A stretch of 64,000 nucleotides of DNA from Gossypium raimondii (Eukaryota > Streptophyta > Magnoliopsida > Malvales > Malvaceae): NCBI RefSeq assembly GCF_025698545.1, contig NC_068567.1:6324001-6388000 (forward strand). Direction: 5' to 3'. Positions within the stretch are counted from its first letter, which is position 1. Each line of letters opens with the position of its first letter. The translations under genes and the position numbers were made by a program. Under the pieces are notes generated by a model. The model was not told where the DNA came from and searched no databases. It saw only the letters and a list, made by a program, of their open reading frames with translations. This document shows positions 7,330 to 23,353 of the stretch, in pieces.

Positions 7330-9214
7330 TTAGGATTCATTGGGTGACTTGGAATCATCCGCAGGAGGAACTGGAGGAGAAGAGTTCTCTGCACCCATCT
7401 CTGCTTTGAGATCATTGATGCTTTGTTCTAGCTCATCTATCCTGCTGCCCATCTCATCGAGTTCATTGAAGTCAAGGAAATCAAGAAAATGTTTACGAGT
7501 GGAATGCAGTTTTATTTTGTTTGGAACAGAAATATATATATGTTAAATTTTTCTAAGACTATTATGTATTTGGAAAGTCCTCGGAGGATCATATCCCAAG
7601 CCCATGCTCGGGTAGGCATTGGATAAGGATGTCTAACATGGGTCTTCAATAAAAATGAAAAGTCAATGTTAGCATAATTTGGTAGCACCTACGAAACAAG
7701 GACAAGCGAAATCAAAATTCGGAACCCCCCCATAGCTAGTTCCCCCCACAATACAAATCCAACCTAAGAACAGACTAAAACCCTGGTAGAAAACTAAGGA
7801 CCCTCCATTTTTGCATATTGCAAAGCAAGTTTAAGACCTAGCCAGCCCCCCATAAAAGAATCCCAAAATCAACAAAACAACAATTCTATGATGTAATAGA
7901 AAAAAACGAAGCAATTCATCTCTTCGAGGTTAAGTTTTCTAAGTATTATGCTGTGATCAGATAATACGAAAAGGATATTCTTCGTGATGATGGAATCAGA
8001 CATTGTTTGGAACCTTGATTGCTGCAACATGAAAGCATATAGCAAACTTAGCTACATCTGCCTAAAATTCATTGTTCTTTAACTCCATACAGAATCTCAA
8101 ATCAATTGAAAATCAGAACTCACCATCTGTTGAAGTAAATTCTGGACCTGCAAAAAGAAGAGAGAGACTAAATTCAGTAAAAGCTGGATGAAAGTCATTT
8201 AAACTATAAAACCATCGTCTTTAAGATGGTCCAACAGTTTCAAGTGCAATGTTTGGTAAATCTCCCTAAAAGCATAGTTAATATCATCTGGTCCAAATAA
8301 CCATGAAGAGAAGGAATAATCTATAATCTAAATTTATTAGTGACATATAAAAGTGCTAGAGAATAGAGGAACTCACGAAAAGTGCCATATCCGTAGTGTC
8401 CTGTTTTGAATCTACAGAATCATTCCCATCCTGAAAATAAATCATGCAACAGTTTCAAGTTCAATCCTTCTAATCTAACTTAAGAAGCAAACCTTTCTTA
8501 AATGAATGTAAAGTTCAAGCCAAAAAGGCAAAAACCAGTCAATGAATTAATTAGAGCCTAGACTTCAGTCATTCTAATATACCAAAGTCCAAATCAATGT
8601 GACACAAAAAACACTTAAAAAGCATAATAGCTATATTTAACAAATTTTGTTTTCAGCAATAGGTTATTGCATTCTAGTTCCACTAACAAGCCAAAGACAA
8701 GAAACATATAGTTCAAATTGGTCAGTTTTCAAATAGTTAAAACTTTTGAATATAATACTCGAATTAATTTTCCAGTTTCCAAACATCTCTCAGCAACCAA
8801 ACAGGACTTTGAATTTCACAGTTATTGCAGTTTTCAGTAATAGATTAAGAGTTTATGACATTCTTAACCCCATTGATAAGCCGCATATAAGAAACATATC
8901 GTCGAAATACTTCAAAACTGATTGATTCGTATAATCTAATACTTACATTAACTTTCCAAGCATTTTCTCAACAACCAAATAAAACTTTCAGCAACTTCTA
9001 AATTACGATTCAGAAGTAAAATAAAAGAAAAGACAAAAAAAAAATTCTAATATGGTTGCCTCGTACAGAAAGAACAGATCAGATCCACTAACAGGAAATC
9101 AAATCCCTAATAAAATACTCATCGATAGAGATTCAGAAATATAATGAAACAAATTAGATATAAATAAAAAATAAGAAAAATAATAATTGAATAATCAAAA
9201 CTGAAAATTACCAT
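7330..9214 (-). CDS. HSBP: Heat shock factor binding protein (HSBP)
   Basis: This gene encodes a small coiled-coil protein of 84 residues. Family members bind the trimerisation domain of heat shock factors and damp the heat shock response after stress. Coding exons on the minus strand are 9212-9214, 8377-8430, 8124-8147, 7979-8021 and 7330-7460. Joined, they read MDGNDSVDSKQDTTDMALF, VQNLLQQM, QSRFQTMSDSIITK, IDEMGSRIDELEQSINDL and a short acidic tail. This matches the Arabidopsis HSBP pattern as I recall it, in length (about 86 aa) and in the heptad core. Two oddities: the first coding exon supplies only the ATG, and intron 4 (7461-7978) has AT-AC borders, which restore the conserved Ile-Asp at the junction. 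The 3' end is far from any other gene; a foldback element starts 168 bp upstream of the ATG. Confidence 0.93.
7461..7978 (-). other. U12-type AT-AC intron of HSBP
   Basis: Read on the minus strand, the intron begins ATATCCTTTTCG and ends TTTCCTTGACTTCAATGAAC. The first nine bases match the U12 donor consensus ATATCCTTY, and TTCCTTGAC matches the U12 branch site TTCCTTRAY, with its adenosine about 11 nt from the AC end. Splicing here joins A to TC to make an Ile codon in the conserved coiled-coil core. Confidence 0.88.
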
Positions 9215-15636: not shown

Positions 15637-15940
15637 CACTTATCACTTGTCTCTTATCAGATAAGTGTAGCTAGGCTACCACTTATCACTTTATCACTTG
15701 ATCAGATAAGTGTAGCTAAAACTACCACTTATCACTTTGTCACTTGATCAGATAAGTGTAGCTAAAGCTATCACTTATCACTTTATCACTTGATCAGATA
15801 AGTGTAGCTAAAGCTATCACTTATCACTTTGTCACTTGATCAGATAAGTGTAGCTAAAGCTATCACTTATCACTTTGTCACTTGATCAGATAAGTGTAGC
15901 TAAAGCTACCACTTATCACTTTGTCACTGATCAGAAGTAC
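15637..15940 (+). repeat. 46-bp minisatellite, each unit a hairpin
   Basis: About six and a half head-to-tail copies, the first 43 bp and the others 46 bp, start at 15637, 15680, 15726, 15772, 15818, 15864 and 15910. Each full unit begins CACTTATCACTT and ends with GATCAGATAAGTGTAGCTA. CACTTATC and GATAAGTG are inverted complements, so every unit can form a stem of 8 bp. The array sits inside LTR A. Confidence 0.93.
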
Positions 15941-22009: not shown

Positions 22010-23353
22010 ATGTTGAACCGGTGGTTAAAGGTTCGCCGCTCCCGAGCCAAAATAATCGTTCTCTGCTTTGTAGTAGCGGTCATCGTCCTACATGGCACCT
22101 TCAACCCCGTAAATCCCGGTTACTCCGCCGATGAAAACCAAAACCACCACTCCGACGCTCATAGCAAGCGGGTTGAGTCCCGCCGCTTACTCGAAGAAGC
22201 TCAAAACGACGCCGCTCAGGGTGACAACAACGACAATAAGAGCTACGCGGAATTTGATATCGCCAAGATTCTCATCGATGAAGAAGAAGGAGAAAAGGAA
22301 AAACCCGACCCGAACAAGCCGTACTCTCTCGGACCTAAAATATCCGATTGGGATCAACAAAGATCCGAATGGCTCAAAACCAACCCGGATTTCCCAAACT
22401 TCATCGGTCCAAACAAGCCCCGTGTCCTCCTCGTCACCGGTTCATCACCCAAACCGTGCGAAAACCCGGTCGGTGATCATTACTTATTGAAATCGATAAA
22501 GAACAAGATCGATTACTGCAGGTTACACGGGATCGAGATTTTTTACAACATGGCGTTATTGGATGCGGAAATGGCGGGGTTTTGGGCAAAACTACCATTG
22601 ATTAGGAAGCTATTGCTTTCCCATCCCGAAATCGAGTTCCTTTGGTGGATGGACAGTGATGCGATGTTTACGGATATGGCGTACGAGCTCCCATGGGAAA
22701 GGTACAAAGATTTCAATATGGTCATGCATGGGTGGAATGAAATGGTTTACAATGATAAGAATTGGATTGGTTTAAACACGGGTAGTTTCTTGTTAAGGAA
22801 TTGTCAATGGTCGCTTGATCTTTTAGATGCTTGGGCTCCTATGGGTCCGAAAGGGAAGGTTAGGGAAGAAGCTGGGAAAATTTTGACTAGGGAGTTAAAG
22901 GATAGGCCAGTTTTTGAAGCCGATGATCAGTCCGCCATAGTTTACTTGTTGGTCAAGGAAAGAGCTAAATGGGGTGAAAAAGTATATCTAGAGAATGCTT
23001 ATTATTTGCATGGTTATTGGGGGATTTTGGTGGATCGTTACGAGGAAATGATAGAGAACTATCATCCTGGATTAGGGGATCATCGATGGCCTTTGGTTAC
23101 TCATTTCGTTGGGTGTAAACCGTGCGGCAAGTTCGGGGATTATTCTGTCGAGAGGTGTTTGAGACAAATGGATAGAGCTTTCAATTTTGGCGATAATCAG
23201 ATCTTGCAAATGTATGGGTTTACGCATAAATCGCTGGCTAGTCGGAGAGTTAAACGAGTTAGGAATGAGACCGCTAATCCACTTGAAGTTAAAGATGAGT
23301 TGGGATTGCTTCATCCATCGTTTAAAGCTGTTAAGGTCTCTCCTTCTTCATAA
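22010..23353 (+). CDS. XXT: Xyloglucan 6-xylosyltransferase (GT34)
   Basis: The intron-less reading frame encodes 447 residues of a Golgi type II membrane enzyme that adds alpha-1,6-xylose from UDP-xylose to the glucan backbone of xyloglucan. Residues 1-13 are a basic cytosolic tail and about 14-30 a single membrane anchor. A variable acidic stem runs to about residue 95. The GT34 domain then begins near KPYSLGPKISDWDQQRSEWL. The metal-binding DSD at residues 215-217 lies in WWMDSDAMFTD, and GCKPCGKFGDY and the HGYWGILVDRYEEM region are typical of XXT1/XXT2. Length compares with about 460 aa for Arabidopsis XXT1/2. The N-terminal tail is shorter than the Arabidopsis ones I recall, but the catalytic part looks near identical. 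The donor UDP-xylose would come from enzymes such as UXS at 55256-57564. A MITE lies 194 bp upstream. XXT1 and XXT2 cannot be told apart here. Confidence 0.96.
   Translation: MLNRWLKVRRSRAKIIVLCFVVAVIVLHGTFNPVNPGYSADENQNHHSDAHSKRVESRRLLEEAQNDAAQGDNNDNKSYAEFDIAKILIDEEEGEKEKPDPNKPYSLGPKISDWDQQRSEWLKTNPDFPNFIGPNKPRVLLVTGSSPKPCENPVGDHYLLKSIKNKIDYCRLHGIEIFYNMALLDAEMAGFWAKLPLIRKLLLSHPEIEFLWWMDSDAMFTDMAYELPWERYKDFNMVMHGWNEMVYNDKNWIGLNTGSFLLRNCQWSLDLLDAWAPMGPKGKVREEAGKILTRELKDRPVFEADDQSAIVYLLVKERAKWGEKVYLENAYYLHGYWGILVDRYEEMIENYHPGLGDHRWPLVTHFVGCKPCGKFGDYSVERCLRQMDRAFNFGDNQILQMYGFTHKSLASRRVKRVRNETANPLEVKDELGLLHPSFKAVKVSPSS

Follow-up and report, generated by a model that had tools for sequence, protein, structure and literature searches.

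An HSBP gene of Gossypium raimondii with a probable U12-type AT-AC intron shared by its paralogues

The window, by which we mean the whole 64,000-nucleotide stretch of DNA analysed here, carries on its minus strand a gene of five coding exons that join into a 255-nt coding sequence, open through to its stop codon. Exon 2 (8377..8430, 54 nt) and exon 3 (8124..8147, 24 nt) have AG and GT on either side, exon 4 (7979..8021, 43 nt) has the 3' end ...ATCATCACGAAGA at 7979, and exon 5 (7330..7460, 131 nt including the stop) opens TCGATGAGATGG at 7460; introns 1-3 all have GT-AG borders. Coding exon 1 (9212..9214) is an ATG followed by GT, so that the start codon is seemingly the sole coding part of its exon. 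The joined exons translate to the 84 residues MDGNDSVDSKQDTTDMALFVQNLLQQMQSRFQTMSDSIITKIDEMGSRIDELEQSINDLKAEMGAENSSPPVPPADDSKSPNES, which identify the gene as one for a heat shock factor binding protein (HSBP): residues 15-62 match the Pfam HSBP1 family (PF06825) at 83.3 bits, against a gathering cut-off of 28.6, and the human HSBP1 structure 3ci9 aligns without gaps at 46.5 bits (E 3.8e-11). Judging by its family, the protein would bind and restrain heat shock factors. Elsewhere in the window, positions 15637-15935 hold a tandem array of 6.6 copies of a 46-base unit with 94% matches.

The fourth intron (7461..7978, minus strand, 518 nt, phase 1) begins with ATATCCTTTT and ends with TTCCTTGACTTCAATGAAC, splitting an isoleucine codon as A|TC, and it is the joining of AAGA to TCGATGAG that gives the 84-residue HSBP. 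Its first ten bases (7969..7978) fit the U12-type 5' splice site [A/G]TATCCTTT exactly at the intron start, the word TTCCTTGAC near its 3' end (7471..7479, branch A at 7472) fits the U12-type branch consensus TTCCTTRAY, and the terminal AC (7461..7462) lies 11 nt beyond the branch A. This is a short distance of the kind seen in U12-type introns, where the branch-to-acceptor spacing is about 10-15 nt. The last 25 bases of the intron are 64% pyrimidine, with the branch word itself included in the count. A sequence-only reading of this DNA had placed an AT-AC intron at 7461..7978 with its AC about 11 nt past the branch adenosine, and on the minus strand its coordinates, donor, branch word, AC end and spacing all proved exact. 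It had also called the intron "textbook", which is slightly strong, because the upstream purine of the window branch word is G and because five of the paralogous copies described below (L010-L014) carry TTACTTAAC instead of TTCCTTRAC. An A at that upstream purine favours efficient splicing of plant U12 introns (Lewandowska et al., as cited in PMC5932401).

How far such motifs could arise by chance was gauged with 100 sequences drawn from a first-order Markov model of the window minus strand. The donor word ATATCCTTTT occurs once on the minus and not at all on the plus strand, with 0.36 expected per strand, and a loose donor-branch-AC pair occurs likewise once on the minus strand and never on the plus strand (0.13 expected). 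On the minus strand TTCCTTRAC, the branch word, is commoner than expected (4 occurrences vs 0.69; 3 vs 0.29 when an AC is required nearby), its other three occurrences lying far off at 22800, 22960 and 30103. Genome-wide, the donor word gave 4652 + 4421 matches and a reversed-pattern control 3097 + 2857, counts that by themselves are uninformative about the HSBP intron. Since the loose pair is expected 0.13 times per strand and this strand has an excess of branch words, the motifs by themselves are only modestly unlikely and are not decisive; what takes the intron beyond chance is their precise fit to the borders of two conserved exons, together with their recurrence in paralogues.

To follow this recurrence, we compared the window gene with its paralogues in one genome (750.8 Mb, 281 contigs). 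A protein search returned 19 matches, comprising two to the window gene itself, six further loci (L010-L015) in which the last HSBP exon is matched at E 3.4e-7 or better, and 11 weak matches (E > 0.1) that were left out; none of the 19 was seen to be an intronless retrocopy displaying the spliced junction. Exons 2 to 5 are recognisable in L010, L011 and L012 and readable in L015, where no ATG was recognised at the expected place of exon 1. L014 (L053; G000:C11, about 31127000) is a partial copy of L010, 93-97% alike, whose match stops before exon 2, and L013 (L054; G000:C3, about 59294900) is a fragment that retains only the last HSBP exon and the 3' portion of the AT-AC intron. All six loci have, at the same codon, an AC acceptor preceding Ile-Asp-Glu/Asp codons together with a U12-like branch. 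The branch word of L015 is identical to that of the window, and TTACTTAAC, the word of L010-L014, differs from TTCCTTRAC by one mismatch at about the same spacing as in the window. The donor ATATCCTTT is present in four of the six (L010, L011, L012 and L015), while L013, cut off inside the intron, is without a donor. L014 is the only copy altered within ATATCCTTT, reading ATATTCTTTT in its place, which looks like decay of a U12 site in a broken copy.

The two ends of the intron have fared differently from its body. We compared the window intron with each copy, without gaps, over its first 10 bases, its last 19 bases and the 20 inner bases adjoining each of these. Against L010, L011 and L012, respectively, the first 10 bases are identical at 10, 10 and 9 positions and the last 19 at 15, 14 and 13, whereas the inner 20 agree at only 8, 6 and 4 positions on the 5' side and at 4, 4 and 3 on the 3' side; L014 gives 9/10, 15/19, 10/20 and 4/20 in the same comparison (first, last, inner 5', inner 3'). 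In the closer copy L015 the body is also still alike, as follows from its values of 10/10, 16/19, 11/20 and 16/20. With gaps allowed, the window intron is 70% identical to that of L015, and its identity to type B (L010, L011, L012 and L014) is 47-50%. Because end matches are high and inner matches low between the window and type B, the intron ends are conserved across the two HSBP types and the body is not. The same apparent AT-AC intron at the same codon in six other loci, new here, is the strongest support for the assignment: with sister copies retaining it, the intron looks real. Taken with the splice signals and the Pfam match of the product, this recurrence upholds the earlier U12-type AT-AC reading, and we consider it very probable that HSBP intron 4 is a U12-type AT-AC intron, common to the seven HSBP loci found in this genome as far as the copies reach, and one that would be spliced by the minor spliceosome.

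The machinery that such an intron would call for is encoded in the same genome. Rfam searches found one match each above the gathering score for U12 (90.3 bits), U11 (78.9 bits) and U6atac (98.3 bits), and a CENATAC/CCDC84 gene is present. U4atac gave no match in the genome with Rfam RF00618, and its absence is not established by this, since no control genome matched the model either. According to PMC11039992, DROL1 is the plant counterpart (orthologue) of TXNL4B, and Arabidopsis plants in which it is mutated are impaired in AT-AC introns. Among 17 DIM1-family matches, five were translated, and of these L028 is closest to human TXNL4B, at 117.5 bits vs at most 45.2 for the DIM1/DIB1-type chains, so that U12, U11, U6atac, CENATAC and a TXNL4B/DROL1-like protein are all at hand. 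With the snRNAs of this genome, the window donor is predicted to pair with the 5' parts of U11 (-6.6 kcal/mol) and U6atac (-6.9 kcal/mol), and the altered donor of L014 less well (-3.8 and -4.0 kcal/mol, respectively); the predicted duplex of U12 with the window branch reaches -9.5 kcal/mol, vs -5.9 kcal/mol for L010-L012.

These pairings bear on whether the AT-AC intron might instead be removed by the major (U2) spliceosome. AT-AC introns of U2 type have an ATAAGT-like donor, and the HSBP donor is the U12 word ATATCCTTTT, accompanied by a branch able to pair with this genome's own U12 snRNA. Major-spliceosome AT-AC introns do exist, as noted in the accessible portions of PMC3584512 and PMC8280824, yet on the donor and branch words we rejected this explanation as very improbable.

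A second alternative keeps the major spliceosome and changes the junction. A GT at 7966..7967 (donor GTATTATC at 7967) can be paired with an acceptor ...CGATGAG whose AG lies at 7454-7453, and the intron could in principle be an ordinary U2-type GT-AG intron in which the AT-AC signals are coincidental. We built and scored the corresponding product. As the sequence-only reading had stated, it stays in frame and puts foreign residues in place of Ile-Asp-Glu; on translation, IDE becomes NILF, making the protein one residue longer inside the coiled coil, where one added residue should shift the heptad register. The product still lies above the Pfam HSBP1 cut-off, at 64.8 bits, but below the 83.3 bits of the AT-AC product, and it aligns to 3ci9 with a gap at 35.4 vs 46.5 bits. 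Conservation separates the two junctions further: the alternative GT is found in three of six copies (window, L010 and L014) and the alternative AG in two of six (window and L015), the two occurring together in the window copy alone (1/6), and a GT-AG intron would give no account of the shared ATATCCTTT and branch words. With lower scores and a pair not conserved among paralogues, the GT-AG junction was rejected as the sole junction, a reading we hold to be extremely improbable.

Under the preferred AT-AC assignment, U11 would pair with AUAUCCUUUU and U12 with UUCCUUGAC, and U6atac would then displace U11 from the 5' splice site. Splicing at AAGA|TCGATGAG by the minor tri-snRNP, TXNL4B/DROL1 and CENATAC included, would give a product reading SIITK-IDEMGSRIDELEQ. 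From the sequence signals we infer that this junction is the one used in vivo and that its use depends on the minor spliceosome, the latter because of what is established for U12-type introns. Were the minor spliceosome to fail, one would expect either retention of intron 4, bringing a stop after 77 residues with loss of the second half of the coiled coil, or a low level of splicing at the GT-AG pair nearby, at the cost of the extra coiled-coil residue. A related possibility is that both junctions are in use, the AT-AC one in the main, with GT-AG splicing or retained intron giving an isoform that is minor or appears under stress. There is precedent in human cells, where loss of CENATAC leads to AT-AN minor introns being retained or to the activation of cryptic major splice sites (PMC8280824, in the part available), and in Brassica, where HSBP splicing is altered with heat, the introns concerned not being named in the accessible text of PMC10499616, which also gives BrHSBP1 two exons. 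Against this, the paralogues do not share the GT-AG pair, and by eye GTATTATC makes a poor donor; we regard mixed use as rather unlikely.

U12 introns were spliced at least twofold more slowly in reviewed systems, and three- to fivefold more slowly in vitro (PMC3584512, in part). It is conceivable, though we think it improbable, that HSBP genes retain the AT-AC intron because it serves as a regulatory bottleneck, the supply of this brake on heat shock factors being held down by minor splicing that is slow or sensitive to heat; if so, heat would lower the amount of active HSBP through retained transcripts, with their 77-residue product, or through the GT-AG isoform. Apart from any such role, the assignment would correct how this small stress regulator is modelled, since a gene finder confined to GT-AG introns would miscall it, and would tie a brake on the heat response to the minor spliceosome by way of an intron that several gene copies retain.

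Among the papers listed by our searches, none was seen to link HSBP with U12 introns: an ovarian carcinoma paper (PMC2974737) has HSBP1 and U12 once each, "HSBP" does not appear in the main texts of PMC2426677, PMC4892727, PMC10639083 and PMC7367187, and the strings intron, exon and splic- are all absent from PMC3994269. The intron is probably already within genome-wide U12 lists, the Arabidopsis gene included. AT-AC introns make up 26% of Arabidopsis U12 introns in one survey (PMC7367187 Table 2, consulted in part) and 4.8% in another (as cited in excerpts of PMC5932401). HSBP intron 4 thus adds a new and clear-cut case to a well-known kind of intron, the biology being otherwise as expected.

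Among the nearest known systems is Arabidopsis HSBP1 (AT4G15802), at its fifth-exon junction, which gene the available text of PMC10499616 describes as having five exons of class '0,0,0,0,2', a class that the phases 0,0,0,0,2 obtained from the exon lengths of the window coding sequence fit in the notation as read here. It differs in being known by exon count and class, that text giving no intron type and not using the word "intron". In rice, an HSBP1 study targets exon 5 (PMC12922113, excerpted). The human A-type (AT-AN) introns that depend on CENATAC share AT-AC ends and minor-spliceosome signals with the HSBP intron (accessible part of PMC8280824), but belong to other genes and another organism.

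As a positive control, we turned to plant CBP20, whose exons 4 and 5 are reported to flank a U12-type AT-AC intron in each of ten plant species examined (PMC5932401, in the portion available). The CBP20 gene of this genome (C3:56308808-56309269 onward) reads GATCCTG|ATATCCTTTC ... TTCCTTAATGTGCTATAC, and past the junction, placed by eye, the frame resumes as RGGYG-like residues; its AT-AC signals are thus as expected from the published intron. In the CBP20-like loci L036 and L037 this donor is missing downstream of the exons matched, within the stretches fetched, and they may be decayed copies. Several CBP20-like matches, most with internal stops, also lie within 40 kb at G000:C11 5879691-5917477 and could form a small cluster in which some copies have decayed. 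CBP20 intron 4 agrees with HSBP intron 4 in its donor and branch words, its AC terminus and its spacing; they lie in different genes, and the upstream purine of the branch is A in CBP20 (TTCCTTAAT) whereas it is G in HSBP (TTCCTTGAC).
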